The notes under the pieces: generated by a model
What the model was told of the DNA's origin: nothing
Seen by the model: the letters and a program-made list of their open reading frames with translations, nothing else
Database searches by the model: none
Position numbers and translations under genes: made by a program
In this document: positions 4,155 to 60,694 of the stretch, in pieces
How positions within the stretch are numbered: the first letter of the stretch is position 1
Layout: every line of letters begins with the position of its first letter
DNA from: Pomphorhynchus laevis
Taxonomy: Eukaryota > Acanthocephala > Palaeacanthocephala > Echinorhynchida > Pomphorhynchidae
Reading direction: 5' to 3'
NCBI GenBank assembly: GCA_012934845.2
Contig: WNNJ02003637.1
Location: 20,501 to 84,500, forward strand
DNA: 64,000 nt

Positions 4155-4162
4155 TTGACTAT

Positions 4163-28636: not shown

Positions 28637-28702
28637 AGAGTATTTCAATATCAACATCTTACCAGATTCTGTTTTGGATATTTTTGATAATACTACTGTG
28701 TT
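28637..28702 (+). CDS. LRR micro-exon 1 (L-type)
   Basis: A 66-nt exon lies between TGTTTAG and GTAAGT, phase 2 at both ends. It encodes one 22-residue leucine-rich repeat: EYFNINI, LPDSVLDI, then DNTTV and a split TT|A Leu codon. It follows the repeat grammar V-x-x-L-x-F-x-x-T-x-I less well than the others (Ile for Thr). The intron downstream (to about 28820) is recognisably homologous to those after exons 5 and 10. No other exon of this gene is seen to the left in the window. Confidence 0.75.
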
Positions 28703-32111: not shown

Positions 32112-32177
32112 GAAGTTTTACAATACTACTTTTGAATCAAACTCTTCACTATATATTTCTGGCAACGTAGATAATAT
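32112..32177 (+). CDS. LRR micro-exon 2 (M-type)
   Basis: A 66-nt phase-2 exon lies between TGTTTAG and GTAAGT. It encodes KFYNTTF, ESNSSLYI, GNVDN and a split AT| codon. The ESNSSL core is identical to exons 3 and 11. It is the only exon starting with G instead of A. Confidence 0.85.
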
Positions 32178-37385: not shown

Positions 37386-37638
37386 TCCGGTCCTTTTAAT
37401 GTTGGCTGACGATCACTCGACAAAAAAATTGCACATTTTTATTATTCCTTTAATATGTTTTATCAACCACTTCTACGAAAGAATACAGCTTCTTAAAATA
37501 TTACTCTATTCTTTTATTAAAAAATATCAAACGGTCCTCATCATTAATAAAAATAGTATGAACATTTTTTGAAATTTTAACATTTAAGTTGTTTTTAAAT
37601 TTGCTTTTGCTCTTAAGGATTATAATTTTTCTGTTTAG

Positions 37639-37704
37639 AGAATTTTGGGATACAAAATTTGAATCAAACTCCTCTTTGACTATAAGTGGAACCGTCGAAG
37701 ATGT
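37639..37704 (+). CDS. LRR micro-exon 3 (M-type)
   Basis: A 66-nt phase-2 exon between CTGTTTAG and GTAAGT encodes EFWDTKF, ESNSSLTI, GTVED and a split GT|A Val codon. About 600 bp of downstream intron aligns with the introns after exons 6 and 8, followed by the same LINE relic, so exon, intron and relic were duplicated together. Confidence 0.87.
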
Positions 37705-38391: not shown

Positions 38392-38532
38392 TGGATCAAA
38401 GAAAGAAGGAAAATTTTATTTGATTTTCGATAACTTCTGTTAGCATCTTCAGAAAATTACTTCAGTAATTTTCTGAAGATGAAACAGAAGTTACCAAAAT
38501 ATCAAAAATAATTTCTTCTTTTCTTTGATCCA
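38392..38532. mobile_element. MITE-like fold-back element with TIRs and 4-bp target duplication
   Basis: Terminal inverted repeats TGGATCAAAG/CTTTGATCCA are extended by near-perfect inverted sequence over the full 141 bp. GAGC flanks it on both sides (38388-38391 and 38533-38536). The matching introns after exons 6 and 8 lack it, so it inserted after the duplication. Each arm contains a hammerhead-like core (CTGAAGATG, then AACAGAAGTT). Confidence 0.85.
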
Positions 38533-38829
38533 GAGCTTCAATAATTCTTGATATTATCATTCAAATGTGGGGTTTTCCTTTTTTAAATGGGCGTGATGTT
38601 TAAAAGGCTTAATAAATTGTCACAATATATTAAGATAATATATTTTTTGTTTCAGCTGTACACGTGCTTTTATGAATTTTATTGTTAAATTTTATTGTAT
38701 TGATAAACCCATCAGAGGGTAACCAATATTGAAATAACTGTTTGTCAAGTTGTATTGATAAATAATATTGTAATAAAAAAATTAATTGTCTCTTTAAGAT
38801 TGAAGTGAATATTTTTTGTTTGACTTCAT

Positions 38830-40015: not shown

Positions 40016-40020
40016 AAAAT

Positions 40021-41103
40021 GTTGTGGAAATTCGCTTAGGTGGTCCACTCCTTCTCTGCCACAGGTAGATTCGGTAGTGATGCGAATCGCAAAGCGAGTG
40101 AGAGCTTGTGCTAAAGTTCGAGACTGTGAACTAAAACGTGTAAGCATGTTCCGCCAAGATGTTGAATCAAGTTCAGAAGGCTCTGCACCACTTTTAGTTC
40201 GTTCACGTGCGGAGATGATACAAGTTTTGTCCAAAGCATAAAATCTGCTTGCGTGATGCATTATTGGACCAGGAAATTGTGACGATAAAAATATTTCTGG
40301 TGGTGGGACTTTTGCGAAGGGATGAAGATCTTGTAGTCATGATTTTAATGATCTAACGTGCACGTTTTCGTCTGGGCTCAGGACTATGGATTATGACTTA
40401 TCTTTTAGTACTGATGTAGACGCCGTCACTTTCACTGTGGTCAGAAATTTACAATAACGACCGATTCAATCAGTTTTCTTGAGGGGAACGCGATAAGTTA
40501 GTCCCAACTGAAAGTGCTTAGCATCATGGAACAATGCGTCGTACTTATTTTTCTCCCATAAAGCTAAACGTCTCTCTATAATTTTGCGAATGAGCGACAT
40601 CTTTGTGGTAGGGACTCGTAGCCGTACGCATTGGGAGAACACCGTGGCTTTTTTTAAAAAGGACGGATCGCAAATTTCTTAAATTGATGCCTTTACGTAT
40701 AAATCGTCGAGAGTTGCTACAAACGTATGACTGGCGTTGCATTTTCGAAGGGTAAATAGATTTGATCGCCATTGCATGACCACAGAGTATATTTCGTCAA
40801 TGGTCATCGGTGTCACTATTCGATTTTCGTGGTGTAGGGGACTAGTTCTGATTCAATCTACGATAATCGCTGGCATGTCACCTTAAGGTCTATATTGTTG
40901 ACTATCAGATGCGGAGAAGTAGGCAGCTCGTTTGTAACGATGGGTGATTGATTCGAGTCCAGCGTTGATTTGCATGAGCAATTATTGGCTAAACAATTAA
41001 AGCATGGCTTTCCAGCTTTAGCGCACTTGCATCTTAGGCATTTAGCTGCTAATGTGTTGCAATCGTAGCATTTGACGCTGGATGAGGGAACACCCTTCGG
41101 CAT
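40021..41103 (-). pseudogene. Cys-rich RT polyprotein, N-terminal part
   Basis: The start MPKGVPSSSVKCYDCN at 41103 leads into AKCLRCKCA, GKPCFNC and NNCSC, a nine-or-more-Cys cluster like that at 1-590. A frameshifted helical segment (RRLALWEKN, about 40560-40600) follows, then a linker, and near 40200-40040 ARERTKSGAEPSELDSTSWR, the entry to an RT domain, ending at 40021. The palm and nuclease are missing. At least two frameshifts and a stop; the C-terminal break meets the plus-strand LINE relic. Confidence 0.75.
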
Positions 41104-41577
41104 TCTCTTAGTTATTTATGTGCTGGTTATTTTGTCCAATGATTGTATGTAATCCAAGTGTATTGTAAAATCCAAGTGTGTTGTAATCCAAGTGTATTGT
41201 ATTGTGTGTATTATGGTATTATTGTGTGTTTAAGGTTACGCTTCCAGTAATATTTATATTAATAAAAATTTTAATCTTTGTGGACAAGATTTAAGAATCA
41301 AGACAATTTTTTAGCCAGTGCAAACATTATAATACGAAGTTATATCCCGCCTCAATCATTTTAGCACGGTACTTTCTATCTTTGACCGATGATGCGTACT
41401 GCGCAGCTGCATAACCAGGCACAATAGCTGACTGGCGAAGAAACGATTACTGTAGTGGATGTGTTACCGCGAAGTCTATAGCATCTGAAGGATCCCCGTA
41501 GATCTGTATATATGTATGTATATACATATACATGTTATATATAACATGTATAAGTATATATGTATTGATACATTGTT
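41104..41577. other. Spacer with AT-palindrome
   Basis: It holds tandem TCCAAGTGTATTGTA words near 41150-41200 and, just left of the array, the perfect palindrome TACATGTTATATATAACATG with flanking ATACATATA repeats (about 41515-41560). Confidence 0.6.
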
Positions 41578-44500
41578 TCGTATGGGATCATGAAGATCGA
41601 TTGAAATCGGGACTGGTGATCCTTTGATGGATGCTTATTTATGTATTGAAAAGTTGCTAGGTCACACAAGGTGACTTTCACATTGAAAACCAGCTACAGA
41701 ATTCGTCCTTCATGATGTTCAACTCAACACACCCTGACAACCAACGGAACCATTGCCACAGCCGTTTTCGTTTCGCCCGCTTTTTGCCACATGTTGGTAG
41801 TCCCGGGCTCGTCAGAAGGCTAGCTACCAACTCTTCACCTTTTGAAACTTGACACATCCGAGATTCGAGCTGTTGCTCTCCGTACTTTAGCTTGCGCTCT
41901 TGACTGCTAGGCTACGAATCCAGGATTACCAAATTTCACACAGTATATGAAACTTTCCATCATGATATCCAGAAATTGTATTATCCGAGATACTTTCTGG
42001 CATGCTTATTATAGATTATTTCGTATGGGATCATGAAGATCGATTGAAATCGGGAATGGTGATCCTTTGATGGATGCTTATTTATGTATTGAATAGTTGC
42101 TAGGTCACACAAGGTGACTTTCGCATTGAAAACCAGCTACAGAATCCTTCTTTCATGATATCCAATTCCATACACCCTAACTACTAACGGCGCCAATGCC
42201 ACAACCGTTTTCGTTTCGCCCGCTTTTTGCCACATGTTGGTAGTCCCGGGCTCGTCAGAAGGCTGGCTACCAACTCTTCACCTTTTGAAACTTGACACAT
42301 CCGAGATTCGAGCTGTTGCTCTCCGTACTTTAGCTTGCGCTCTTGACTGCTAGGCTACGAATCCAGGATTACCAAATTTCACACAGTATATGAAACTTTC
42401 CATCATGATATCCAGAAATTGTATTATCCGAGATACTTTCTGGCATGCTTATTATAGATTATTTCGTATGGGATCATGAATATCGATTGAAATCGGGAAT
42501 GGTGATCCTTTGATGGATGCTTATTTATGTATTGAATAGTTGCTAGGTCACACAAGGTGACTTTCACATTGAAAACCAGCTACAGAATTCGTCCTTCATG
42601 ATGTTCAACTCAACACACCCTGACAACCAACGGAACCATTGCCACAGCCGTTTTCGTTTCGCCCGCTTTTTGCCACATGTTGGTAGTCCCGGGCTCGTCA
42701 GAAGGCTGGCTACCAACTCTTCACCTTTTGAAACTTGACACATCCGAGATTCGAGCTGTTGCTCTCCGTACTTTAGCTTGCGCTCTTGACTGCTAGGCTA
42801 CGAATCCAGGATTACCAAATTTCACACAGTATATGAAACTTTCCATCATGATATCCAGAAATTGTATTATCCGAGATACTTTCTGGCATGCTTATTATAG
42901 ATTATTTCGTATGGGATCATGAAGATCGATTGAAATCGGGAATGGTGATCCTTTGATGGATGCTTATTTATGTATTGAATAGTTGCTAGGTCACACAAGG
43001 TGACTTTCGCATTGAAAACCAGCTACAGAATCCTTCTTTCATGATATCCAATTCCATACACCCTAACTACTAACGGCGCCAATGCCACAACCGTTTTCGT
43101 TTCGCCCGCTTTTTGCCACATGTTGGTAGTCCCGGGCTCGTCAGAAGGCTGGCTACCAACTCTTCACCTTTTGAAACTTGACACATCCGAGATTCGAGCT
43201 GTTGCTCTCCTTACTTTAGCTTGCGCTCTTGACTGCTAGGCTACGAATCCAGGATTACCAAATTTCACACAGTATATGAAACTTTCCATCATGATATCCA
43301 GAAATTGTATTATCCGAGATACTTTCTGGCATGCTTATTATAGATTATTTCGTATGGGATCATGAAGATCGATTGAAATCGGGACTGGTGATCCTTTGAT
43401 GGATGCTTATTTATGTATTGAAAAGTTGCTAGGTCACACAAGGTGACTTTCACATTGAAAACCAGCTACAGAATTCGTCCTTCATGATGTTCAACTCAAC
43501 ACACCCTGACAACCAACGGAACCATTGCCACAGCCGTTTTCGTTTCGCCCGCTTTTTGCCACATGTTGGTAGTCCCGGGCTCGTCAGAAGGCTGGCTACC
43601 AACTCTTCACCTTTTGAAACTTGACACATCCGAGATTCGAGCTGTTGCTCTCCGTACTTTAGCTTGCGCTCTTGACTGCTAGGCTACGAATCCAGGATTA
43701 CCAAATTTCACACAGTATATGAAACTTTCCATCATGATATCCAGAAATTGTATTATCCGAGATACTTTCTGGCATGCTTATTATAGATTATTTCGTATGG
43801 GATCATGAAGATCGATTGAAATCGGGAATGGTGATCCTTTGATGGATGCTTATTTATGTATTGAATAGTTGCTAGGTCACACAAGGTGACTTTCGCATTG
43901 AAAACCAGCTACAGAATTCTTCTTTCATGATATCCAATTCCATACACCCTAACTACTAACGGCGCCAATGCCACAACCGTTTTCGTTTCGCCCGCTTTTT
44001 GCCACATGTTGGTAGTCCCGGGCTCGTCAGAAGGCTGGCTACCAACTCTTCACCTTTTGAAACTTGACACATCCGAGATTCGAGCTGTTGCTCTCCGTAC
44101 TTTAGCTTGCGCTCTTGACTGCTAGGCTACGAATCCAGGATTACCAAATTTCACACAGTATATGAAACTTTCCATCATGATATCCAGAAATTGTATTATC
44201 CGAGATACTTTCTGGCATGCTTATTATAGATTATTTCGTATGGGATCATGAATATCGATTGAAATCGGGAATGGTGATCCTTTGATGGATGCTTATTTAT
44301 GTATTGAATAGTTGCTAGGTCACACAAGGTGACTTTCACATTGAAAACCAGCTACAGAATTCGTCCTTCATGATGTTCAACTCAACACACCCTGACAACC
44401 AACGGAACCATTGCCACAGCCGTTTTCGTTTCGCCCGCTTTTTGCCACATGTTGGTAGTCCCGGGCTCGTCAGAAGGCTGGCTACCAACTCTTCACCTTT

Positions 44501-44899
44501 TGAAACTTGACACATCCGAGATTCGAGCTGTTGCTCTCCGTACTTTAGCTTGCGCTCTTGACTGCTAGGCTACGAATCCAGGATTACCAAATTTCACACA
44601 GTATATGAAACTTTCCATCATGATATCCAGAAATTGTATTATCCGAGATACTTTCTGGCATGCTTATTATAGATTATTTCGTATGGGATCATGAATATCG
44701 ATTGAAATCGGGAATGGTGATCCTTTGATGGATGCTTATTTATGTATTGAATAGTTGCTAGGTCACACAAGGTGACTTTCGCATTGAAAACCAGCTACAG
44801 AATCCTTCTTTCATGATATCCAATTCCACACACCCTGACTACCAACAGAACCATTGCCACAGCCGTTTTCGTTTCGCCCGCTTTTTGCCACATGTTGGC
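41578..44899 (-). repeat. 443-bp tandem array, 7.5 units, four-unit higher-order pattern
   Basis: The landmark TCGTATGGG occurs at 41578, 42021, 42464, 42907, 43350, 43793, 44236 and 44679, an exact 443-bp period. Units alternate between type A (ATGATGTTCAACTCAACACA) and type B (ATGATATCCAATTCCATACA). Among A units, 1 and 5 share GGGACTGG/AAAAGTTG while 3 and 7 share GAATATCG, giving a 1772-bp four-unit super-repeat. On the minus strand each unit holds a tRNA-like block: GTAGCCTAGCAGTCAAGAGC (box A-like) followed about 35 nt later by CAGCTCGAATCTCG (box B-like), for example 41925-41855. I infer a SINE-like or tRNA-derived satellite. The last unit stops at GCCACATGTTGG. Confidence 0.92.
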
Positions 44900-45429
44900 A
44901 AACATTACATAATGTTTGCATTATATTAATGATAATAATATAATACAAATTTTATTATTAATATAATTTGTAAATAATTAATTTACATAATTACAAATTA
45001 CATTTAATTATACAAATTACATTTGTATAATTTTATTATAATATTATATAAATATTTATATTATTAATATAATATTATTTATATTGTTAATATAATGCAA
45101 ACATATATTCATAATAAAAATAATGCTTTTTAAAATATAATTTTGTTTATAATAAAGAAATTTATTAATAATACAATATACAAGTCAAGGGTTACTCGCA
45201 AATGGGTCCTTATGTTTATATTTAATTGATCATTTCGCTTGTTTGTAATCACTGGAGAATTAATCCTCGACCTTTGTGATCGGATCGATAACGAAACATA
45301 AAGTGTTAATGCAATGCTTATTTTATTTCGAAACTCTCTTATCGCATGATAATACTCACGTTTATGTTTTTCAGCTGTTTAACGTGCCATTGCTTTTATT
45401 AGAATAGAAGCTGATAGCTAAGTTAATTT
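44900..45429. other. Extremely AT-rich stretch
   Basis: TTATAATATTAT-type low-complexity DNA to about 45180, beginning and ending with GCAAACAT words, then an ordinary AT-rich spacer. Confidence 0.6.
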
Positions 45430-46760
45430 GTTGCAGCGATAACAATATGACAAAATGAGAAATTTTCAATCTCACTATTTCGTTTTAAATACTTGGCACG
45501 CTTGCGCTGCTCGTCATATTCGATTCATCCTTCTAATGATTTTGCATGATACAACGGAGCTGGATTATTAAATACATATGTCCATAAACGTCCGCTAAGT
45601 CTACCACCAAAAATACCATTCCATACAATGTTAGACGAGGCATCGTTATATCTGGTAGATGTTAATCGTACGAAATCTACATTATCTTGAACACACTGCA
45701 AGGTTGGTTCAATACCAACACTGTGCATTTATAACTAGTTACTGTTGCTAAAATATCACGTACATTATTATGACGGTATATGGGTAACGTTTTAGCTTTG
45801 CAAGATAACACATGTGCAATGCTAACTAAACAGTAACTTTAGCCAGTTCAAATATGACTGTCCAATTTTTCACTAGCCATATACATTTATTATTAATAAA
45901 TTTATCAGTTCCTACAGGAAAACCAAGTATCATTATGCCTTCAGTTTTGAGTGATATACTTGTCTCATGAAATTTCTGTTTGGCATTTTAAGTTTATTGG
46001 TATGCATTAATTTACTTGAATTCTTTGCATTCACAAAATGACCGTAATTGTGACCAATGTCCGACAATATTCGTCATACCTTTTAAAGATCTTCAATATG
46101 TCCAATAGTTTTCGTCATCCGCATACCATAACTGCGTTACTGTATGTACTTGCTGATCGATTCTGTCAATTATTGTTATGGAAAAAATTGCGAATGCGGT
46201 TATAGCGAGCGGGCCACGTTGAGTAAAATTCTCACGAATTTCAATAATTCTTACTCGCAAGCCTAGTCCGAATGAATCGTGTATGTGCTCACGAACTGCA
46301 TTGAAACACTGGACACACATTGCCTTTGTTTGATATGGTGACCTTGCGATTAGCATAATTTAAAACATTTTGAGCATCTACTATAGTATTACACAGTCTT
46401 CTTTTTTAATTAATTTTTTTAGTTGTTTTGTGAATAATATATTCCAGTCCACCTCGTTGTCCTGCTCACATCTGTTCACTACCAGAATAAGCTTGCAGAT
46501 CTTGCTTTGCAATGTTAATAATGATTTTCCCTATCACTCGTCGAGCAATCTCACCAACCCCAATCGGGCGTACTTCAGGAATTTTATTTAATGTGATAGA
46601 CCTGCTAGCAACATATGTATCAAAGATGTCAGGATTTAAAGATTCGCTAGAAATTTTAATGGCAAAATCCGCAATAACCTCAGACAACTTTGACGAGTGT
46701 TGTCCGAAGGAATTTAATCACCACCGAAGAACCAACACCTCCATGTATTCTTGATGATGC
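45430..46760 (-). pseudogene. Restriction-like-endonuclease RT polyprotein relic
   Basis: Leftward: VIADFAIKISSESLNPDIFD, PEVRPIGVGEIARRVIGK (RT finger block) at 46687-46466; after a gap, IARSPYQTKAMCVQCFN, FTQRGPLAI (degraded motif B') and QLWYADDENYW (catalytic motif C, 46356-46093); then FPVGTDKFINNK; and at 45728-45440 FVRLTSTRYNDASSNIVW, GIFGG, LWTYVFNNPAPL and KRAKYL, the nuclease-like C-terminus. The first catalytic Asp block is missing between 46466 and 46356. Same superfamily as 29440-32086. Confidence 0.75.
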
Positions 46761-47226
46761 TGAGATAATTATTGACGCATTAATTACCAAAAACAAGGAA
46801 CTGTGCTGTTGTTACCAGTTTTGCACTGGTATTTCTAAGATCACATCGATTTGAAGTTATTGTTTTCACGAATGAAGATCATTTCTAATATTACGAACAC
46901 GGTGGTTTTCAACAACGTCATCTAAATTTAAAACAGGCTGATTCATGTGATATGATTTAAAATATAACAATACTAATAATAATTTTATAACCATAATATT
47001 ATAATATTTACAATATCTATGTACTAAATAAATATTTATATAATAATTTATGCAGTAATCTTTATGTAAACGAGGACAATATTTATGTTCTATTAACAAT
47101 TTTTAAAAAAGAATATATTTTCTTCAAATATTATGAAACTGTAATTATTTAATCGAAATTATTTAAATCATCAAATATCTTTTTTATAATTATAAATTAT
47201 AAAACTATTATAATTTTCGTGTTTAG
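46761..47226. other. AT-rich intron-like spacer
   Basis: No gene recognised up to LRR exon 4. Confidence 0.4.
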
Positions 47227-47292
47227 AAAATTCACGAGTACAACATTTAAATCAAACTTCTCATTGATTATTTGCGATAGCGTCCCAAACAT
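47227..47292 (+). CDS. LRR micro-exon 4 (M-type)
   Basis: A 66-nt phase-2 exon between GTGTTTAG and GTAAGT encodes KFTSTTF, KSNFSLII, DSVPN and a split AT|A Ile codon. The SVPN ending is shared with exons 6 and 8. It is followed after 320 bp by the truncated RT relic at 47614. Confidence 0.85.
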
Positions 47293-47613
47293 GTAAGTCT
47301 AAGACGTTTAAATAATTATTGTTTCGTATAAATATCAAATTTGTTTCTTATGAAAACATTTATTTTTATTTCCGTGATCATTTGTTTGTTTATGCGAGTA
47401 AGTTTTATTAAATTTAATTGAATATTTTCATCTATTTATAATTGAAATTTATCTCAAATAAAAAGAAATAATTTACTAAAAGGTCAAAAAGAAATAAAAG
47501 ATCAAATTTAAATACCATTCATTAAAAAATTTTTCATATTCAAATTTCATTCGTCTTCTGTTTCAAAAATTTCCTAATGAATTCACGAATTCGGCAGGAA
47601 ATATAAAAAAAAT

Positions 47614-48062
47614 TCGAACCGGCATACTTAGCGCGAGACGATGGCATTCAACCCGATGGTGCAACTCTTATGTCATGAGAAGCTGGCCGTATACTCGTTT
47701 GGGATTTCACTTGCCCGAACACCCCGGCCGCCAGTCATGTCGCACATGCTGTGTCTTCTGCTGGCGCTGTTGCAGCCCACACTAAGCAGCTCAAACGAAC
47801 CAAATACAGCTGCTTGGAGGATCGACAGTATTTGTTCTTCGCCATCGAAACACTTGGCGAGGTCCGTCCCAGCGCATCTGCGTTTTTGAGGCAGCTTGTT
47901 TCGAGGTTGGTGCGGACAACCGGTGATAAATGCGCATTCAGCTGGATCATTCAACGAATCAGCGCAGCCGTGCAACGAGGGAATGCAGAATTCTTTTTGG
48001 AATCGGCTAAAGATACCTACATAGGCAACTACCTTATTATTTTATATTTAATTTTGATATAA
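47614..48062 (+). pseudogene. RT polyprotein C-terminus (copy A)
   Basis: One frame reads through with a single TGA: LARDDGIQPDGATL, then stop, EAGRILVWDFTCPNTPAAS, SSAGAVAAHTKQLKRTKY, FFAIETLGEVRPSASAFLR and QRISAAVQRGNAEFF. The PDG...WDFT spacing fits the restriction-like nuclease (RPD...D) of site-type non-LTR elements, with the basic residue changed to Gln (IQPDG). The TGA replaces what is probably Trp. The same TGA is in copy B, so it predates the duplication. Confidence 0.8.
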
Positions 48063-48325
48063 TGAAATGGTTTATTTGTTAATAATTTTACTTGAAATCT
48101 ATTTTTAAATTATAACATTCATTGAATAATTTTTCATATTCAATTTTCATTCGTCTTCTGTTTCAAATATTTCCTGCCGAATTCATGTATATCGCATTTT
48201 TCTTAAAACTTATAACGAAAATGCATAAACTATGTGCACTCTGTTAACTTAAAACTTTATTAAGTTAAACGTAGAGTTAGTTTATTTGTTCTGTCTAATT
48301 CATGAATGATAATTTTTCTGTTTAG

Positions 48326-48391
48326 AGAGTTTCATAATAGTATCACCTGGTTGAATACGTCATTGAATATTTTTGGTAATGTCACTTTGCT
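48326..48391 (+). CDS. LRR micro-exon 5 (L-type)
   Basis: A 66-nt phase-2 exon between CTGTTTAG and GTAAGT encodes EFHNSIT, WLNTSLNI, GNVTL and a split CT|A Leu codon. Its twin, exon 7, differs at three bases, all replacing amino acids (I to M, T to I, L to S). It lies 481 bp before exon 6. Confidence 0.9.
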
Positions 48392-48872
48392 GTAAGTACT
48401 AGTGAATTTAAGGTATCTATCGCATTTGGGTGAAATCTCTTTCAGATTTTATAAAATTTTGCCACAATGATTGGTTAGATTTTATCGTAACGGCACAATT
48501 TACATGTTATTGGCACATACTTGCTTTTCTAAGCACAAATGATATAAAAATGTCAACTACAATACTTTTTAAATGAAATCAATTAAATATTTTGTAGTTT
48601 ATATTTATAAATCTGCACAATTTTATTATTTTGTTTTATTATGTTGTTTTAGAGCAACATAAAGTGAAAATAAAATATTAAATATTAAATCAATATTGTA
48701 TTTAATAAAAATATACGGTAAATTAAAACTCATTGTAATTTTTTAAATTTCAAGTTTGAATGTTTGCCCTTTTATAAAATTGTATTCTGTTGTTTTAAAT
48801 AACAATTTTCGAATGTTTCCTTGTTTAAAAACATTATAAAATATTTATATTTTTACTTTTTTTTGCATTTAG

Positions 48873-48938
48873 AAAATTTAGAGGCACGACATTTGTATCA
48901 GACTTATCACTGACTATTTACAATAGTGTCCCAAATAT
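48873..48938 (+). CDS. LRR micro-exon 6 (M-type)
   Basis: A 66-nt phase-2 exon between GCATTTAG and GTAAGT encodes KFRGTTF, VSDLSLTI, NSVPN and a split AT|A codon. Its twin, exon 8, differs at six bases in five codons, all amino-acid changing (G to D, T to I, V to L, S to T, L to V). Confidence 0.9.
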
Positions 48939-49589
48939 GTAAGTCCAAAATGTTTTAACTATCAATTTCTGCGTTTAAAAAAATGATTTGTTTTAAAAAC
49001 ATTTATTTCTATTTCGGTAATAATTTGCTGGTTTTCATATATTCGATCAAGTTTTATTGAATTTAATGTATATTTTCATCGCCTTATAATTAAAACTTAT
49101 CTCAAATAATAAGCAATAATTTACTAACATTTATAATTTTAAGTTTATTCTTAAATATAACACGCATTGAATAATTTTTCATATACATTATTAGCGTTCT
49201 GTTTCCAATATTTCCCGCTAATATTGTGTATATCGCGTTTATCTTTAAACTTACAAAGAAAATGTATAAATTATGTGAATTCTGTTAAGTTAAAACTTTA
49301 TATTTACACTGGTTTTTAAATGTTGTATTATATTATTTAGCATTCGATTAATTTCCAATCGTTTGTAATCAAAATAAATTATAATTTTTGATATTTTTGT
49401 ATTACTACTATTGGCTTGAATAATTTACTGGTCTATGAATAATGTGCGTAATAAATATATATTCTCTTATTAACATGTGTGGTCTTCTTTTTTAAAATCG
49501 GAATGTTGAAAAGTTTTAATGAATAATAAATATTTCATGTTCTATCTGTACGCATATTTTTCTGAATTATTCTACTTGAATTACTCAAG

Positions 49590-50560
49590 ATTGAAGTGAA
49601 TATTTTTTGTTTGACTTTATCGCTTTTATCATCTTGCAAACACGATTCAAATATATCAAAGAAAAGGGTAATTTCAACGAATTCTGTTTATTCAGTAAAT
49701 TACAACACTGCACGATTGCATTAAATAAACGTCTTCTCTTTGATTTGTCATCTAAAAATTACTGTATACAGATGCGTTGTTTAAATGTTCAACTTGTAAC
49801 TTAATTTCCAAAGCTAGATTTCTAGAATAGGAACAACGAATTTTTACTCAAAGCAGAGTATGCTCCATGGTTACTTTGCAAATGAGATCACAGAACCAGC
49901 TCTAAAATGTCTTTATCGACTGGTCTTTACGTTTAAAATATGTTCTTGGTCATTCAGTCTTACAAGAAACTTTTGTTTTTTGCCCGTTATATTTAATTTA
50001 AATATTATTGACGATACAGATTCGCTTAATTTACCATTTACGTCTAGTGATGTGAACAGATCCGTTTACATCATAAAGAATAATAAAGCTGCTGGGTTAG
50101 ATTAGCTTTACGTTGAACATCTAACATTGACCTTTTAGTGGTTGGATAATTACTGTACGCATTTATTAAATGTTTTGTTCAATTGTTATTCGATTCTATT
50201 ATCTTGCGTGACGATGTAATAAAAATTCTTTACTTTAGTAAAGGATCTTAAATTTTTTTAGATTTATATCACGGGATTGATATTCTTAATCCTGTCTTTA
50301 ATTTATTCACACGTGTTATGCATACGCGATTAATTAGCTATCGTGGATATTCTCAGGCTAAAGAGCAATATGGCGCATAAATCCACACCGGTTTACTTCA
50401 TATGCTATAAAAATTGTGCGTGATGAAGGTGATGGCTATTTTTGGAGCCATGTTTCGCTTTAGTCTATAGTCATATATTTTGAACGAGCTTTTGATTCAG
50501 CTAATCTGATCTTTACGCAGTAAGCGTAGATCTTCTGCGAGTACTTTGTAGAAGAATATG
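49590..50560 (+). pseudogene. Non-LTR LINE relic (copy of 38830-40015)
   Basis: Blocks: CTIALNKRLLFDLSSKNYC, LNLPFTSSDVNRSVYIIKNN followed by KAAGLD (RT entry block), then HTRLIS and KEQYGA (normally EEQYGF). Stops throughout. It sits in the intron downstream of LRR exon 6, like its copies after exons 3 and 8. Confidence 0.75.
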
Positions 50561-50789
50561 ATCTTAAAATATGATCTTCTACGCACAGAGGCATATATTA
50601 TATTTCTAACTTGTAATTGAATTTCGCAAAGCTTTACTTCTAAATAAGGAACAATTAATTTTGCAGAAAGCAGAGTTAATAGTTACTTTTTAAACAAATT
50701 TTACATAGACTTAAATACGTAACTTCAAATACGTAAAGTCAGTTAGCTGAATTATTTTCTTCTACTGACATGTTATTATTGACCTGTGA
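50561..50789. other. Short spacer
   Basis: It contains a TAGATCTTCTGCG/CTACGCA-type inverted segment near 50510-50585. No gene. Confidence 0.4.
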
Positions 50790-51240
50790 ACTTTGTTTTC
50801 TCTGTCAGAAATACTGAAACTGTGTATTATTGGTTACGACTTTACTATTATTTTTTCTTATTTTCAAACAAGTTTGATGAATTATTAATTCTTAAAAAAG
50901 GGAGAAGTTTGCATCCCAAGGTGTTTACACTTAAAATGTAAACTGCTTCACGTGATCATGTTTAAGAGACCAGGTAATGGCCAATAGCCAGGTCGTGTAG
51001 CGCGTGGAGTGAAAGTGGTAGATCTTTATAGATCTTGTTCCATCCAGCAATCGCCTTGAACAGGGCAGCCTTCTGTCAGATGCTGCTGGATAGCCCGTTG
51101 TAAGTTTTATCTGAGTCAACTAAACTAGGTGCCCAACCCGAAAAACAACGTTAAAAATTACGACTTAACAAGATTTACATGTACTCAAATAGATTGGAAG
51201 CATAAGTAAGGACTAAATATTTTAATTTTAGATCTTTTTA
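50790..51240. repeat. Dispersed repeat, copy 2 (copy 1 at 28948-29390)
   Basis: It shares long near-identical stretches with copy 1, including GAAGTTTGCATCCCAAGGTG and TTACAAGTTTGATGA-like flanks, so the homologous unit extends well into AT-rich DNA. Confidence 0.75.
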
Positions 51241-51289
51241 ATGTAACAGATAAATTGTATAGTTTGTGATGCTATAAATAATAATTGTA

Positions 51290-51777
51290 TTAAAAGTAAT
51301 ACGTTAATCGAATGTTTTTCATCAAATATTAATAATAATTGTAACTGCAATACCGCAGGTGTAGTATATCTAATACAATGTACATGTTGATTGCAATATA
51401 TTGGAAAAACATATCAAATGTTAAAAACTAGGTTTAGGCAACACATATATAATATACAGCATAATAGTCAAACTATATTTTATAAACATATGAGATTAAT
51501 AGGACATGATATAGGATATTGTAAATAATTTATTTTAGAACATATTGTTGAAGAAAATTAGACAATATTGAATCAAAAACTATTAGAAAGAGAATATGTT
51601 TGGTTTAAAACTCTTAATTCCATGTACCCATTAGGATTGAATGACGTGGTACAAGTAATTGGCAGAAGTAGTATAGTAAATAATGAACAACTATATTATA
51701 ATAATCCGGTTAAATGCAAGCTAAGAAGTCATTGCGACAAAAGGAAAAAGAAAAATAAACTTAAAAATATCATTTAA
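51290..51777 (+). pseudogene. GIY-YIG endonuclease, N-terminal domain of a permuted Penelope-like element
   Basis: In one frame with three stops: CNTAGVVYLIQCTC, TGA, LQYIGKTYQMLKTRFRQHI, FYKHMRLIGHDIGYC, then FILEHIVEEN and KLLEREYVWFKTLNSMYPLG, ending LNDVVQ. These are the GIY (VVYLI), YIG, catalytic Arg and Glu blocks of a GIY-YIG nuclease. It lies upstream of an RT of the same AT-rich family, the reverse of the canonical RT then GIY-YIG order at 13 kb. Confidence 0.82.
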
Positions 51778-52428
51778 ATGGAGTAAATAAATATTTAAAA
51801 AGTAAATAATCATTTAAATAGTTAAAAATATTAAAAAAGGTATGTATATAAATGAACAATTAGAAATATTAAAAAACTTTAAGGAGATAATAAGCTAAAT
51901 GATCTTTATGTAAATAAAAGAAGTTTTTTCAAATATTATTTACTCATCAAATCAAAGATTAATTAACTACTATTATAGGCTAAGTCGTATAATAGACAGT
52001 TATTGCAATATAAAATACTATAATCGTTCAATAAATGTTAATAATAACAATAAACAATATACACTGCCCATAAAATTCATTAATAAAAGTAAATAAAAAA
52101 TTCATTCTAAAAGAAAATAAATAATAGGATCGGATTTAAGTTAATATATTCCATAAAGAAGGTGTAAACTGTCACCGCATTACAACGGTAAATTTGTAAT
52201 TATAATAGAGTTGAAATCTATATGTAATGCTGATATTAGAAACGTTATAAAAACAGAATGCAACCGCAAAAGTCTTAATTTTGATAAAATTAATGAACAT
52301 ATGTACACATACACTCGAGTTATTTGAAAATAGTGAGTTTAGAGAGATGTTATGATAAAGGTATAAATGTAGATTAAATAATAACAATAAAAATAAAATT
52401 TAAAATTTTTTATACAATGACTTAAATG

Positions 52429-53165
52429 CTTACTTTGGTAAGCTGAATAATCGTGGAAGCTTAAATACATCAAAGATAAACATTTGGAAAACTTATATAT
52501 TAGATAAAATAAAAACGAAAATGAAAATCACAAACAATTATAAAAGCAAAGGTCAAATTAATAAAGATATGTATACAGAACTTGTCAAATTTAAGGATAA
52601 CTATATAATAACAACTATTGATAAAGCTGGTAACAACTTTGTCTTCATATGCAAAAAGCTTTATTATGATATACTGATAAAAGAGGTTAATTCTAACGAT
52701 ATAAATGTAAATCCAACATATGAACGTAGTGAGTTAAGTTTAGAAACAATTATTACAAGTCATTGTTCTATAATGGATAACAAGGGTATAAAGGTTGAAT
52801 CAGATAATAAAAAATAACTGTATTACATTTGAATCTAAAATTACATAAAAATCCAATAAAACCTAGGTTCATATGTAGTGCTTTTAAATGTACATTAAAA
52901 CCAATTTCTGTTTATATGAATAATATACTTAAAGTAATTAAAGCACACTTCAAAAAATATTGTAGGTTAATCGGAATTAATACTTGTATAAAACACTATT
53001 TCAGTATTAATTATACAAAAGAATTTTTAGAACACACGAAAAGAATAAATTTTCAAATTACGATTTTATTACGCTTTTTACAAATGTAGATTCAGCAGAT
53101 ATTAAAGCAAAATTAATTAATATGATATTCGATAAAGCAATAGATATTAAGGCTATAATATTTTA
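52429..53165 (+). pseudogene. Permuted Penelope-like RT, N-terminal half
   Basis: 52521-52817 reads MKITNNYKSKGQINKDMYTE, IITTIDKAGNNFVFICKKLY and NVNPTYERSELSLETIITS. A stop and frameshift follow, then LKLHKNPIKPRFICSAFKCT and CIKHYFSINYTKEFLE. Homology ends near 53165, before motif B'. It belongs with the GIY-YIG domain about 650 bp upstream. Confidence 0.8.
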
Positions 53166-53191
53166 CATATAATATCTTACATATTTTATTG

Positions 53192-54300
53192 TCAAGCTCT
53201 TTTAGTACTTTTGTAAACAACAATTTTTCAGATATTATCAATTGAGAATCTTTACTACTTTAAAATTATATTGCTCTTTATAATCCTATCGCATCAAAGC
53301 AAAATGTATCATTTGAATTTAAATAAACATTTTTCTAGGTTAGGCTTAGAAATAGCTGTCGTAATCTGACAAACTTGCAGTTCCTTCTATATCATTGTCT
53401 TTCTAATTAAATCTGTGTTTACATGCACAACACATGTCTGTGATTGAGATTTAGGTTTTTACTAATGTATCATCGACTTCACTCTAGTACTTCCCTCGTA
53501 ATAATTTGTGGTCATTAGTATGATGAAACCTTTTTATGGTCGGATGTTATTTTAACGGCAAAACACAGTTGAAGGCAGTAGGCCTATCTTATGCATTAAC
53601 ATTGGCAAGCAACCTGAGAATAGATAAATAAGTTTATATTAAATATTTGCAAATCATTTGTCCGAAATGTTTGCATCTACTTATAGTTTTCTCAAAAATC
53701 AATCACTTTTGCTTATATCTCGTTCAACCATATTTTCTCCCCTGCCATTTTGCTTCTGCGTAAGCTATTGTTAATTTGCATGCCATATACAAGTCATAAT
53801 ATGGTTCGCATGTTGCCGGCTATATTTCTTATATTTTGTAGATGCTTTAATTTGTCATTTAATTTGATTGTGTTCATATATTTTGTTGATTCAATTTAGT
53901 ATATCCGTTTTGATGTGATAAAACATTTCAGTTTAAATGTCAATAAACACAGATTAATTTTAAACTTAAAACACTATTAATAATGTGTCTATTTATAGTG
54001 TGCAATTAATTAGTCAAGCTCTTTTATTACTTTTGTAAACAGCAATTTTTCAGATATTATCAATTGAGAATCTTTACTACTTTAAAATTATATTGCTGTT
54101 GATAATCCTATCGCATCAAAACAAAAATATCATTTAAATTTAAATGAACACGTTTCTATGTTAGACTTAAAAATAGCTGTCGTAACCTGACAAAGTTGCC
54201 GTTCCTTCTATATCATTGTCTTTATAAAATTAAATGTATTTATAATCTATCAATAAATTTATAAAATAATATTATTTGATTTTTATTATATAATGGCTAA
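53192..54300. repeat. Diverged direct repeat pair
   Basis: 53192-53400 and 54013-54215 share TATCAATTGAGAATCTTTAC and ATAGCTGTCGTAA, then TTCCTTCTATATCATTGTCT. The second member is also the start of the 9.3-kb unit that recurs at 63363. Between them is AT-rich DNA with no gene. Confidence 0.8.
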
Positions 54301-54698
54301 ACATTCTTTTCTTATAACTTTATACAATAAAATACACAACGAATATACGTATACAACTGACTATACAACTATATGCATACAACTAACGAATAACCCAATA
54401 CGATGTGTCACATAACTCAACAGAACAGGAAAGGCCAATCAACAACATAGTTCTCTCAGCATATTGACGCAGTCGTGGAGCAACCTTCTAACGAGACGGT
54501 AGTGGTGTCTACTCAGCTTTCCTAAAATTGTGCATTGCGTGCATTAGCAGAACAAGAGTACTCCTTCTCATCCCTCTCAATCTGCAAAGATTCGAGCTGC
54601 ATGCGCCCGCCACCAATTTCCTTCTGAGGTTAGTCTGGAGGAACATAACCGATGCAACATCACAAAGAATAAATCCTCCGTGGATGAACTACGCCGAA
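54061..54698. repeat. Start of 9302-bp-spaced duplication (pair at 63363-64000)
   Basis: The two stretches match nearly base for base to the window edge; the differences I see include CACG/CATG and CTGAC/CTGGC. They cover AT-rich DNA and the first part of the RT relic. Confidence 0.93.
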
Positions 54699-56323
54699 AG
54701 ATTTCTGAAAAAATTGAGGACGGCGACATCCGCGGCGCTGTTCGTTTTGTATGCAGAGACTCAGGACACCTTTTTTTGCGACGAAAACACAACTACAACT
54801 CTCGATTGCTGCCCTGTTGTTATTGTCGCATCTTTACTTTGCTGTTTACGGTCTTTACCGCCCCCGCCCGCGGGTGGCCCTGACGGCTTAAGGCAAATAC
54901 ACCTTCGAGATCTAACAGGATTATCTGATGTTAGGCTGACGGAGCCGAGATTGGATTACGATTAAATTTCCAAAAGTGCGAGGTGATCACCGAAAGCAGG
55001 AATGTGATCCAAGCTATCACGTGCAAGCTAACAGGGTGCAAGACTATCACATCTGAATACGCACAGCTTATGGATGCGCCGCTTAGGAAGCAAGCAAGCA
55101 TCGACAACCCATTAAGCTGCGCAGTGGACGAGTTTCATAACGCCAGAATCCAGTTGACCGAATTGGCTTCCTTCTTCGATGTGCCCCCTGCTACGGAAGT
55201 GAAATGCTTCAACTTTTCGACACTGAAGTTCGAAGAATATTGAGCGAAATACTCAATGTGCCACTACCCAACGAAGCCTGGAGCCCAGCGACCTTACGAA
55301 TCCGTCTTGGAGGTCTCGGTGTTTGCAAGTATTAGAGGCTGTCCTTCCTGCGTTCGATTCATCCATCAAGAACACAATTGAACTTAAGAAGATATTGCTA
55401 CGGAACTTTCCGCCGTTAACCCTTCGCACTTTTGAATCAGACCGGGAAAATACCACAAATCAATGGAACGTGGAGTATCGGATGACCATTCCATCGGATC
55501 AAATATCACAAAAATGATGGATTGCTGAAGACTACGAAGCGTGCCAACGAAGATTTGTTTACGAAGCACTGACAACTAAATCTCGAGACTGACTCATCGC
55601 AGTAGCATCAAAGTGATCCGGGGCGTTCTTTGAAGCACTGCCGATCACATCTGTCGGTACACGACTTGATGACCGATCTATTTCTATCGCCATAGCGTTG
55701 AGGCTCGGTGTTTAATGCTTTCAACGGCATCGGTGTATCTGCGGAGTGTCGGTCCCGCATGTCACAGTTCTCATGCCTTAGACTGCAACAGGATAACGTA
55801 TCGTCACCACTGACATGTTGCGGTCAACGACATTTTGAGAATGGCTCTCGCTGCCTCTCGATCACCCTCCAGATTCGAACCGGCATGCTTAGCGCGAGAC
55901 GATGGCATTCAACCCGATGGTGCAACTCTTATGCCATGAGAAGCTGGCCGTATACTCGTTTGGGATTTCACTTGCCCGAACACCCCGGCCGCCAGTCATG
56001 TCGCACATGCTGTGTCTTCTGCTGGCGCTGTTGCAGCCCACACTAAGCAGCTCAAACGAACCAAATACAGCTGCTTGGAGGATCGACAGTATTTGTTCTT
56101 CGCCATCGAAACACTTGGCGAGGTCCGTCCCAGCGCATCTGCGTTTTTGAGGCAGCTTGTTTCGAGGTTGGTGCGGACAACCGGTGATAAATGCGCATTC
56201 AGCTGGATCATTCAACGAATCAGCGCAGCCGTGCAACGAGGGAATGCGGAATTCTTTTTGGAATCGGCTAAAGATACCTACATAGGCAACTACCTTATTA
56301 TTTTATATTTAATTTTGATATAA
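54430..56323 (+). pseudogene. Restriction-like-endonuclease RT relic lacking its palm
   Basis: In shifting frames: VDELRRKISEKIEDGDIRGA then VRFVCRDSG (54670-54780), PAGGPDGLRQIHLRDLTGLS (54870-54930, RT entry), then, with the whole catalytic palm missing, the post-palm LRLNFQKCEVITESRNV (54970-55010) and LDVPPATEVKCFNFSTLK-like helices; near 55270 PLPNEAWSPATLRIRLGGLG; near 55874 EPACLARDDGIQPDGA and the nuclease tail identical to copy A. The missing palm is represented by the relic at 36950-37385. GC-rich (about half) in an AT-rich setting. It co-duplicates with LRR exons 7 and 8. Confidence 0.8.
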
Positions 56324-56586
56324 TGAAATGGTTTATTTGTTAATAATTTTACTTGAAATCTATTTTTAAATTATAACATTCATTGAATAATTTTTCATAT
56401 TCAATTTTCATTCGTCTGCTATTTCAAATATTTCCTGCCTAATTCATGTATATCGCATTTTTCTTAAAACTTATAACGAAAATGCATAAACTATGTGCAC
56501 TCTGTTAACTTAAAACTTTATTAAGTTAAACGTAGAGTTAGTTTATTTGTTCTGTCTAATTCATGAATGATAATTTTTCTGTTTAG

Positions 56587-56652
56587 AGAGTTTCATAATA
56601 GTATGATCTGGTCGAATACGTCATTGAATATTTTTGGTAATGTCACTTTGCT
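56587..56652 (+). CDS. LRR micro-exon 7 (L-type, twin of exon 5)
   Basis: A 66-nt phase-2 exon between CTGTTTAG and GTAAGT encodes EFHNSMI, WSNTSLNI, GNVTL and a split CT|A codon. The three differences from exon 5 fall in module residues 6, 7 and 9. About 240 bp on either side is identical to block A. Confidence 0.9.
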
Positions 56653-57134
56653 GTAAGTACTAGTGAATTTAAGGTATCTATCGCATTTGGGTGAAATCTC
56701 TTTCAGATTTTATAAAATTTTGCCACAATGATTGGTTAGATTTTATCGTAACGGCACAATTTACATGTTATTGGCACATACTTGCTTTTCTAAGCACAAA
56801 TGATATAAAAATGTCAACTACAATACTTTTTAAATGAAATCAATTAAATATTTTGTAGTTTATATTTATAAATCTGCACAATTTTATTATTTTGTTTTAT
56901 TATGTTGTTTTAGAGCAACATAAAGTGAAAATAAAATATTAAATATTAAATCAATATTGTATTTAATAAAAATATACGGTAAATTAAAACTCATTGTAAT
57001 TTTTTAAATTTCAAGTTTGAATGTTTGCCCTTTTATAAAATTGTATTCTGTTGTTTTAAATAACAATTTTCGAATGTTTCCTTGTTTAAAAACATTATAA
57101 AATATATATATTTTTACTTTTTTTTTGCATTTAG

Positions 57135-57200
57135 AAAATTTAGAGACACGATATTTTTAACAGACGTTTCACTGACTATTTACAATAGTGTCCCAAATAT
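57135..57200 (+). CDS. LRR micro-exon 8 (M-type, twin of exon 6)
   Basis: A 66-nt phase-2 exon between GCATTTAG and GTAAGT encodes KFRDTIF, LTDVSLTI, NSVPN and a split AT|A codon. The six base differences from exon 6 fall in module residues 4, 6, 8, 9 and 11. About 650 bp of downstream intron shows no difference that I can see. Confidence 0.9.
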
Positions 57201-57849
57201 GTAAGTCCAAAATGTTTTAACTATCAATTTCTGCGTTTAAAAAAATGATTTGTTTTAAAAACATTTATTTCTATTTCGGTAATAATTTGCTGGTTTTCAT
57301 ATATTCGATCAAGTTTTATTGAATTTAATGTATATTTTCATCGCCTTATAATTAAAACTTATCTCAAATAATAAGCAATAATTTACTAACATTTATAATT
57401 TTAAGTTTATTCTTAAATATAACACGCATTGAATAATTTTTCATATACATTATTAGCGTTCTGTTTCCAATATTTCCCGCTAATATTGTGTATATCGCGT
57501 TTATCTTTAAACTTACAAAGAAAATGTATAAATTATGTGAATTCTGTTAAGTTAAAACTTTATATTTACACTGGTTTTTAAATGTTGTATTATATTATTT
57601 AGCATTCGATTAATTTCCAATCGTTTGTAATCAAAATAAATTATAATTTTTGATATTTTTGTATTACTACTATTGGCTTGAATAATTTACTGGTCTATGA
57701 ATAATGTGCGTAATAAATATATATTCTCTTATTAACATGTGTGGTCTTCTTTTTTAAAATCGGAATGTTGAAAAGTTTTAATGAATAATAAATATTTCAT
57801 GTTCTATCTGTACGCATATTTTTCTGAATTATTCTACTTGAATTACTCA

Positions 57850-58255
57850 AGATTGAAGTGAATATTTTTTGTTTGACTTTATCGCTTTTATCATCTTGCA
57901 AACACGATTCAAATATATCAAAGAAAAGGGTAATTTCAACGAATTCTGTTTATTCAGTAAATTACAACACTGCACGATTGCATTAAATAAACGTCTTCTC
58001 TTTGATTTGTCATCTAAAAATTACTGTATACAGATGCGTTGTTTAAATGTTCAACTTGTAACTTAATTTCCAAAGCTAGATTCCCAAAATAGGAACAACG
58101 AATTTTACTCAAAGCAGAGTATGCTCCATGGTTACTTTGCAAATGAGATCACAGAACCAGCTCTAAAATGTCTTTATCGACTGGTCTTTACTTTTAAAAT
58201 ATGTTCTTGGTCATTCAGTCTTACAAGAAACTTTTGTTTTTTGCCCGTTATATTG
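57850..58255 (+). pseudogene. LINE relic, truncated third copy
   Basis: It repeats the CTIALNKRLLFDLSSKNYC block of 49.6 kb and stops at GCCCGTTATATT. Dead. Confidence 0.75.
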
Positions 58256-58419
58256 CAATTTTATTAGATCTTTGTCTTTATTGAGGACCTCTATATTGTT
58301 TGTATTCTATCATAAGGTTTTATAGCAGCGTTAATTTGCTTATGTATCTGTTAATTTGCTCATGTTTTGCTGATTTTGAGGACGATCATCTGGAGTACGA
58401 TCAGGAACCTTCGTGTTGG

Positions 58420-59345
58420 GAAACAGAAAACTCCTCACACTGTCTATGACAATAGATTGTATTTGCTGACTAACATAGAAGAAATTATTGGTTGTTAGAA
58501 AGATCATTTTAGGAGTCTCTTTAAGCTCATCTTTTTGGAAGAGGTCATTGCTGTTGTTAAAAGACTTCGTAATTTCAAGTCTTTTAAAGCATATGAGATT
58601 CGACCTCAAGCTTTAAAGGATATCGACGTTTTTGGCACCAACTGGCTAACACGGATCTTCAACGTGTCATTGAAGTCAGTCAAGGTTCCTAATGAGTGGC
58701 GAACTGGGGTTGTGGTACCGATCTTTAAGAAAGTTGACTGAATAGTTTGTTTCAATTATCGGGGCATACCTCTTTTTATCCAAACTGGTAAGCTATTTGC
58801 AAAGATTCTTGAGTTAAGGATACGGCATATAGTTGAGGAACAGTTGCAAGAGGAACAATGCTGATTTCGTCCAGGCCGTGGAATTACGGATCAGCTCTTC
58901 ACTCTCTCAACTATCCTTGAATGGTCTTAGGAGTTCGCTCTACAGGTCTACATGTTTTATTTGTAGATTTGGAAAAGGCGTTCAACCGAGTTCCGCGTTT
59001 GAGGTTGTGGAAAGTACTAAGAGAGAATAGAGTACCACACTATCTTCGGGTAGCTGTGGCTTCTCATTATTAACAAAGCATGAGTTGTGTTCGTGTTCTA
59101 GGTAGGAAGTCTGAATCATTTTCAGTAGGCGTTGGGCTACGTCAGGGTTGTTCTTTGTTTCCACATTTGTTCCTTGTTTAAATGAAAAATTTTTTGAGAC
59201 AAGCTGCTCTGCCGGATGTCGGTTTCCAGTTTGGTTCCATCATGATACAATCTCTGCGTTTTGCAGTGATTATTCGTTTTTTCTTGTCAAGAAAGTGTTG
59301 CTATTGCTGATTTGTGTTTATCTATTTTCCTTTGAACATACCTAA
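58420..59345 (+). pseudogene. RTE-like non-LTR RT relic
   Basis: Blocks in order: RLYLLTNIEEI (58450), LEEVIAVVKRLRNFKSFKAY then EIRPQALKDIDVFG (58535-58630), PNEWRTGVVVPIFKKVD (58690), FNYRGIPLF (58755), EEQC-stop-FRPGRG then ITDQLFTLSTILEWS (58850), a degraded WKRRSTEFRV for the first catalytic block (58970), and after frame changes VGSLNHFQ and GLRQGCSLF-like motif B' (59130). No motif C is visible. This is a different family from the LINE relic that ends at 58255. Confidence 0.82.
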
Positions 59346-59807
59346 ATAGAAATTATTATTTTTAAATAATTTAATATTATGTCTTTTGATAAGTCAAGTT
59401 CTTTAATTATTTTTGTAAATTATTAAAAATCAATTTTTCATATATGATTTATTTATAAACTTTAGTTCTTGAACATTGTATTCTCAATGTTACATAATAT
59501 CACATTATATTTAATTAAAGAAAATATATACTATTTGCATTTAAATGAAACCGCTTGTATGTAAAGTTTAGAAATCTCGGGACGAACTTGACAACATAGC
59601 AGTACCTTTAGATCACTATTTCTATAAAATAAAATACATTTATAATCTGTCGATAAGTTTACACAGTTTATTTATTGTGTTATAAAATTGTAATTTTATA
59701 ATAATAAATTCACTCAATATTTTCTGCTAAGGAGAATTTGAATTAAACCTAAAATTAATTTTCTTGTTCTGTTTAATTCATAAATTAATAATAATTTACC
59801 TGTTTAG
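59346..59807. other. Intron-like spacer
   Basis: AT-rich. About 59391-59650 is related to 28010-28160 and 53190-53400 (a shared AACATAGCAGT motif within an imperfect hairpin). No gene. Confidence 0.5.
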
Positions 59808-59873
59808 AGAGTTTCACAATACTAAGGTCTTGTCAAAGACGTTATTGCGTATTTTTGGTAATAATACTCTATT
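59808..59873 (+). CDS. LRR micro-exon 9 (L-type)
   Basis: A 66-nt phase-2 exon between CTGTTTAG and GTAAGT encodes EFHNTKV, LSKTLLRI, GNNTL and a split TT|A Leu codon. It lies only 193 bp before exon 10, the closest pair in the series, so two adjacent L-type modules would be joined. Confidence 0.88.
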
Positions 59874-60066
59874 GTAAGTACACGCTTATGCTAATTAATT
59901 GTATATCAACACAGATTATTAATAGTGCATTAAAATTGTAATTTTTTAATAAAAAATTCAATATTTTTTTATTTAATATTTTCTTCAAATGAGAATTTCA
60001 ATTCAACGGACAAATAATTTACTTATTCTGATTTATTCATAAACGAACTATGATTGATCTGTTTAG

Positions 60067-60132
60067 AGAGTTTTTCAATACTCGGATCAGCGCAAAGTCG
60101 GTTTTGGATGTTTTTGCTAATGTTAATTTGTT
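60067..60132 (+). CDS. LRR micro-exon 10 (L-type)
   Basis: A 66-nt phase-2 exon between CTGTTTAG and GTAAGT encodes EFFNTRI, SAKSVLDV, ANVNL and a split TT|A Leu codon. Both flanks resemble those of exon 1 (AACGAACTATGATTGATCTG upstream). Confidence 0.88.
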
Positions 60133-60628
60133 GTAAGTGCACTTTAATTTAAGTTATTTATCGTATTTGGGTGAAATCTGTTTTATCAGATTCCAGAAAA
60201 TTTTAATTATTTTTTCATATTTTATTTTATTCGTCACAATCAGTAGTCGTTTATCATCGCAAAGGATCAATTCATAAATGATTTAGAAATTTTACTTTCC
60301 AAAGGACAAATGTATTACGAAATAGTTACAATAATATTTGTATAAAATCAATTGGTTAGTTTGCATTTCAAATGCCGTATTTAGCACATAATATAGTATC
60401 TTAATATTGTATTTTTCACAATTTTATTATTTTGTTTAAATGTTTTATTAATCAATTTATGAAAAGAATACAATTTATTATAAAATATTATTGCATTTTT
60501 TTATATATAACATATCAAATGTATCTCGTCATTAATTCAAATAGTTTGAGAACGAATTTTTAAATTTAAACATTTATTTCTACTTGAAATTTTTGTTCAG
60601 CTTTTACGATTATAACTCTTTTGTTTAG

Positions 60629-60694
60629 ACAATTTATAAATACAAGATTTGAATCAAACTCTTCATTAAATATTTACGGAGGCGTGCAAAATAT
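60629..60694 (+). CDS. LRR micro-exon 11 (M-type)
   Basis: A 66-nt phase-2 exon between TTGTTTAG and GTAAGT encodes QFINTRF, ESNSSLNI, GGVQN and a split AT|A codon. The ESNSSL core matches exons 2 and 3. It is the last module seen before the window ends. Confidence 0.88.

Follow-up and report, generated by a model that had tools for sequence, protein, structure and literature searches.

Exon-concentrated divergence between two near-identical blocks of a 66-nt module family in the acanthocephalan Pomphorhynchus laevis

Introduction

How can a protein encoded by many small, similar exons change quickly in some of its residues and remain the same elsewhere? Several known systems come close to this question from different sides. 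The variable lymphocyte receptors of cyclostomes are built as leucine-rich repeat (LRR) cassettes, and bicycle genes are composed of many short exons. One fold, the right-handed parallel beta-helix, is shared by pectate lyases, phage tailspikes, the CAP C-terminal domain and the SV2 luminal domain. The bicycle genes of gall aphids are described, in part of a paper devoted to them, as showing fast protein change and having few detectable relatives (PMC9168663). In snake venom genes, a pattern named accelerated segment switch in exons (ASSET) has been reported, and its mechanism is left open by its authors in the portion of the article used here (PMC2711939).

Here we analyze a cluster of short exons in Pomphorhynchus laevis (Acanthocephala), a thorny-headed worm living in fish. 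The window, i.e., the whole stretch of 64,000 nucleotides under analysis, corresponds to C2485:20501-84500 of its 249-Mb assembly. Besides the exons treated below, the window carries at 1093-4162 an open ubiquilin-like reading frame in two tandem copies (99.5%). Ten P. laevis proteins match it: for eight, identity is 87-98% and covers 17-25% of the query, and the remaining two match at 62% over 62% and at 73% over 18%. At 41563-44898, a 443-bp unit is repeated 7.5 times in tandem, and at least part of this array is present on contig C141.

A Family of 66-nt Module Exons

Eleven exons of exactly 66 nt are found in the window, all on the plus strand, with TTTAG/GTAAGT borders and in one phase, so that the module exons are read through in frame once joined. 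Four of them lie in the two blocks discussed later. As for the others, those at 28637..28702, 59808..59873 and 60067..60132 are of the E type, the second of which differs at residue 6 (K/Q) from its counterparts on C141 and C2963; those at 32112..32177 and 47227..47292 are of the K type, the latter being colinear with C2740:58066; that at 60629..60694 starts with Q and is otherwise K-like; and that at 37639..37704 has an identical copy on C141. E-type and K-type exons frequently alternate.

The family extends over the genome. A scan with the splice pattern gave 163 matches, compared with 11 when the pattern was reversed, and 52 of 62 places tested, a set that omits most tandem-array copies and comprises 54 distinct sequences, 44 of them intact, were open 66-nt exons with a correctly placed GT donor. 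From the fetched loci, 122 open modules were gathered, of which 74 are distinct. Strong constraint acts on residues 1, 2 and 5, where N is 9 and S is 18 (ratio to neutral 0.14, p=1e-6), which speaks for a real reading frame. There is an enrichment of N-glycosylation sequons (67 versus a mean of 41 and a maximum of 58 in 500 shuffles) and cysteine is scarce (6 of 1554 residues), a composition that would fit a secreted protein. We infer that the module exons are expressed.

What is known about this family? Only one annotated relative, GJ496_000637, was found in 5.8 billion proteins at E <= 0.01 among proteins of lengths near that of the query. It is to be noted that the first exon of GJ496_000637 precedes a poor splice donor, and its gene model may be wrong. 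No match was obtained by tblastn of one module against phage records, no title or abstract opening among those listed by literature searches dealt with this module family, and the term 'leucine-rich' occurs 0 times in the P. laevis genome paper (PMC7310846). The modules constitute an uncharacterised modular repeat-protein family.

Several features of its arrangement are worth recording by themselves. Tandem arrays with units of about 3.94 and 6.2 kb, each with several module exons, occur at C1405:1-75000 and on C2100, C2611, C3010 and C342; their units are nearly identical, and they are possibly very long repeat genes. Two stretches of 181 bp that surround module exons show 98-99% identity between window 59752-60189 and C2740:93870-94310, and the colinear pieces adjoining them show about 85-93%, which suggests another recent copy or recombination.

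Predicted Fold of the Modules

The sequence-only reading that drew attention to this locus had taken the modules for LRR exons, an assignment that finds no support here. Pfam searches with three single modules and with four multi-module translations gave no LRR family, a profile search against PDB gave four TLR4-containing chains in the LRR register only at E 0.39-0.44, and the better fold model matches right-handed beta-helices. An AlphaFold2 model of five modules, aided by module fragments that aligned to one of the five only, has a mean pLDDT of 67, with the modules mostly at 71-84 and the last one lower. It consists of parallel coils with three strands per turn and one exon per coil, and structurally resembles right-handed beta-helices, the best match having 8% sequence identity. 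No LRR chain appeared among the best 24 and best 50 matches of the structural aligner, nor among 22 further matches. At the sequence level, Pfam gave no match to a known beta-helix family; Chlorovi_GP_rpt came up three times below the cut-off, as did other unrelated names, and one DUF723 score above the cut-off came from a highly repetitive query with no passing stretch. The module family is predicted, on the basis of this model, to form a right-handed beta-helix with one 22-residue coil per exon.

Exon-Concentrated Divergence between Blocks A and B

Two blocks in the window, A at 47612..49993 and B at 55873..58254 (both plus strand), are about 2.38 kb long and 99.1% identical. Each contains two module exons: A1 at 48326..48391 (E type; EFHNSITWLNTSLNIFGNVTL) and A2 at 48873..48938 (K type; KFRGTTFVSDLSLTIYNSVPN) in the former, B1 at 56587..56652 (EFHNSMIWSNTSLNIFGNVTL) and B2 at 57135..57200 (KFRDTIFLTDVSLTIYNSVPN) in the latter, all on the plus strand. 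The initial count by eye, nine exon substitutions against about ten elsewhere and two indels, agrees well with an exact alignment, which gives nine substitutions in 132 bp of exons (three in A1/B1 and six in A2/B2) and 11 in the 2249 other columns, plus two one-base indels (48856, 49841). Divergence is 6.8% in exons versus 0.49% elsewhere, and the odds ratio of 14.9 (Fisher p=3.8e-7) bears out the estimate of about 15 times the background rate. The exon-concentrated difference between A and B is real in the assembly.

The nine changes fall in eight codons, at residues 6, 7 and 9 in A1/B1 and at residues 4, 6, 8, 9 and 11 in A2/B2, so that their reported confinement to module residues 4-11 holds. 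As had also been claimed, none is silent and all eight codons specify a new residue, with the nuance that codon 11 of the second exon was changed twice (TTA/GTT) and one step alone could have been silent. Since a random change is a replacement in about 73-78% of cases, all-replacement among eight or nine changes is not unusual alone; by our own arithmetic, its chance is 0.75^8 to 0.75^9, or about 0.1.

Might the difference have been created by the assembly itself? According to the part of the genome paper available to us, the PacBio reads were obtained from a pool of ten worms, and contig correction relied on Illumina reads (PMC7310846), which could mis-map in exons common to many paralogues; moreover, the assembly contains, next to the window contig, the contigs C141, C2963 and C2129, which overlap and are nearly identical. 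However, such miscorrection should paste in the sequence of another module, and the assembly contains no exact second copy of the patches; all four exons are open with intact splice sites, and the residue is altered in every changed codon. We regard an artefact as rather unlikely.

History of the Blocks and Timing of the Changes

A colinear cluster on contig C2740 serves as the outgroup for polarity. It is colinear in pieces with window 45698 to 60189, the counterpart of block A lying at 58 kb (a) and that of block B at 84-89 kb (b); the left part and left flank of block B are colinear with C2740:82986-84649. A genome-wide repeat of about 432 bp, with a copy at 47614..48045 on the plus strand, is present at A, B and b, sits inside conserved sequence at B/b, and is absent at a. 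Because this repeat is colinear at B/b but missing at a, block A was most likely copied from block B, its probable source, ectopically and recently, to a locus 8.26 kb away. Contig C141 is 99.94% identical to the window at 34000-40707 and jumps directly from window 45416 to 59704 with matching flanks, and thereby lacks a 14.3-kb stretch with five module exons, namely that at 47227 and the four of A and B. As C141 makes this passage without any copy of the blocks, A and B seem to vary between haplotypes. No further copy above 90% covering the A/B exons was found in the assembly, so that each exon sequence is represented there once; C2963 starts 9 bp past the second exon.

Eight of the nine exon changes can be polarised: three are derived in A1, B1 having the outgroup base at all three sites, one is derived in A2, and four within 12 nt are derived in B2, while the remaining one, in A2/B2 at 48890, is ambiguous. 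When did the exons begin to diverge so quickly? In a four-way alignment of 132 exon and 1040 other columns, 11 exon and 116 non-exon changes fall on the branches predating the copy, compared with 9 and 4 on the tips of A and B (Fisher p=2e-6, or p=1.8e-4 when the 11 non-exon changes found over the full blocks are taken). The exon replacement:silent ratio was 5:6 before the copy, as sorted by eye from the codon table, and 9:0 after it (p=0.014, with the unpolarised change at 48890 included among the nine). Thus, older branches of the same exons have no excess, and no other evidence favours selection after the copy as strongly as this shift of exon rate since the copying.

How Many Independent Events?

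Substitutions that are close to each other may not have arisen one by one. The 20 substitutions between A and B form 10 clusters, the two largest of which are the exons, and the exon changes amount to just three or four patches. The result then depends on how events are counted: 4 or 5 exon versus 9 other events give p=0.004 and 0.0006, and 2 or 3 exon versus 8 other events give p=0.10 and 0.02. Counted as events, the exon excess is modest.

This invites an explanation by chance, namely that a small number of multi-nucleotide mutations, or of patches left by error-prone repair, happened to fall in exons with little or no selection. Clusters do exist outside the exons (48157/48160; 49821/49823/49825), and when rigid clusters are placed at random, 11% of the placements bring two or more of them onto exons (p=0.11). 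In contrast, at least nine substitutions fall in exons in only 0.5% of the same placements (p=0.0047), and the turn from 5:6 to 9:0 after the copy speaks against chance as well. Such an accident appears rather improbable to us.

Search for Donors and Mutational Signatures

If the patches had been imported from other module exons, as the sequence-only reading proposed as one possibility, where are the donors? The patches whose donor in register was at issue are ATATTTTTAACAGACGTT and AGTATCACCTGGTTGAATAC. Whole-assembly scans gave no exact second copy of the A1 or the B2 patch. With up to two mismatches, the B2 patch has 24 places besides B (25 in total; reversed control 79), of which 14 were read; with up to three mismatches, the A1 patch has 10 places besides A and B (12 in total; control 6), of which nine were read. 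None of these 23 of the 34 near-matches lies in a module exon (20 by a 66-nt frame test, three from context). Among the places read, there was thus no donor module for an import of short exon patches.

Short-tract gene conversion could still be considered with module exons that are absent from the assembly, which may be incomplete, or unrecognised in it. The family copies and homogenises itself, the changes within the exons are patchy, and the best partial match, an 11-nt in-register run between the A1 patch and the module at C560:9036, spans two of the three derived sites. Yet, out of 27 random combinations of bases at these sites, three attain a run of this kind, and outside the A/B/C2740 group no module matches more than one derived B2 site in one run. 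With these scans also against it, we think conversion unlikely.

Targeted mutation had been suggested too. Diversity-generating retroelements change adenines only, and deaminase hypermutation makes only C to T or G to A changes. For the eight changes that could be polarised, the original bases are G, T, C, A, G, T, T and A; neither an adenine-only nor a C-to-T-only signature emerges, which speaks against this idea.

Is the Divergence General in the Family?

In most pairs other than A/B, exon divergence is near or below that of non-exon sequence. C2740a and b differ at 5/132 exon versus 49/1036 non-exon positions; the members of a trio on C798 at 2, 3 and 5 of 66 versus 3.2-3.6%; and a pair on C569 at 1/66 versus 4.4%. 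Similarly, the exon and non-exon counts are 1/198 and 37/4618 for C2485/C2963, 0/264 and 11/2919 for C2963/C2129, and 0/132 and 4/4028 for C560/C2735. The tandem arrays of C1405 and C2100, whose non-exon divergence of 0.50% equals that of A/B, have 0 exon changes in 10296 bp over 78 non-independent pairs, and units of the 6-kb array differ by 1.52% in exons versus 1.38% elsewhere.

N and S were also counted on minimum spanning tree edges of at most 16 differences among the 74 distinct exons of the 122 modules, after five low-scoring exons had been removed. The family as a whole has a dN/dS of 0.78; for residues 4-11, N is 116 and S is 42, a ratio to neutral of 0.89; positions 3, 4, 6 and 8, a post hoc pick, give N 92.5 and S 15.5 (ratio 1.56, p=0.15). 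With these values of 0.78 and 0.89, no standing positive selection is seen across the family. Comparison with other copies thus leaves the exon excess of A/B in place but finds little or none in other young duplicates, and a diversification mechanism acting on the whole family is not supported by them or by the ratio of residues 4-11. What stands of the strong diversifying selection originally proposed is exon-concentrated replacement change after a recent duplication, in both lineages.

At three places, C2963:4969, C560 near 8.5/17.9 kb and C489 near 51/67 kb, the start of high similarity between copies coincides, exactly or to within about 10 bp, with the 3' end of a module exon. Exon swaps were considered at C560 (17.9/8.5 kb) and C489 (51/67 kb), where 24 and 25 of 66 nt differ, and were rejected; since the upstream intron diverges too, these cases are edges of homology near the exon 3' end.

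A Possible Course of Events

Taking these results together, we give about an even chance to a short burst of selected, partly multi-nucleotide change that followed ectopic copying in an uncharacterised modular family. The cluster is built from single-phase 66-nt exons, each encoding one 22-residue coil of the predicted right-handed beta-helix. About 2.4 kb with two module exons were probably copied recently from locus B to locus A, and both copies have since gained replacements at coil residues 4-11, which the model puts between the first and third strands of the coil, with the surrounding DNA nearly unchanged. The likeliest cause is ordinary diversifying selection, for which three or four mutations, two or more of them patches of several nucleotides, would have provided the material. 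The pattern of divergence, its polarity and the shift of rate are shown; selection as the cause of the exon change after the copy is what we infer from them.

A far more speculative extension is that ectopic copying homogenises a large family of beta-helix genes with one exon per coil, and that a process acting on exon patches, be it strong episodic selection or template-free patch mutation, makes one face of the coil diverge anew after a copy. The outcome would be a repertoire of surfaces open to change, with module number varying between haplotypes; we hold this reading to be very unlikely.

If the burst comes from selection, it marks one-sided residues of a repeat-protein coil in a fish parasite as worth testing. 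The module clusters, with their near-identical arrays and differences in module number, also offer a tractable case of concerted evolution versus exon diversification.

Comparison with Known Systems

How does this locus stand among known systems? Compared with known right-handed parallel beta-helix proteins, the modules have no detected sequence relationship and one coil per 66-nt exon. Cyclostome variable lymphocyte receptors resemble the module family in having modular repeats with variable positions; however, the modules are germline exons split by introns, the LRR assignment is unsupported, and no donor patch was found. Many short exons are a trait of bicycle genes and of the module family alike. 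With bicycle genes, as far as the consulted part of their description goes (PMC9168663), the modules share fast protein change and few detectable relatives, but the modules are uniform 66-nt repeats of one motif. ASSET is the closest described pattern that we met. In the sections of its account drawn on here (PMC2711939), short exon segments change, duplicates including their introns stay alike and framework residues are kept, and A/B are similar in this; faster divergence of exons than of introns between duplicates is present in the A/B pair. The two differ in scale: ASSET, as described there, extends across venom protein families and replaces whole segments, whereas A/B are one pair with three or four small patches, in a worm.
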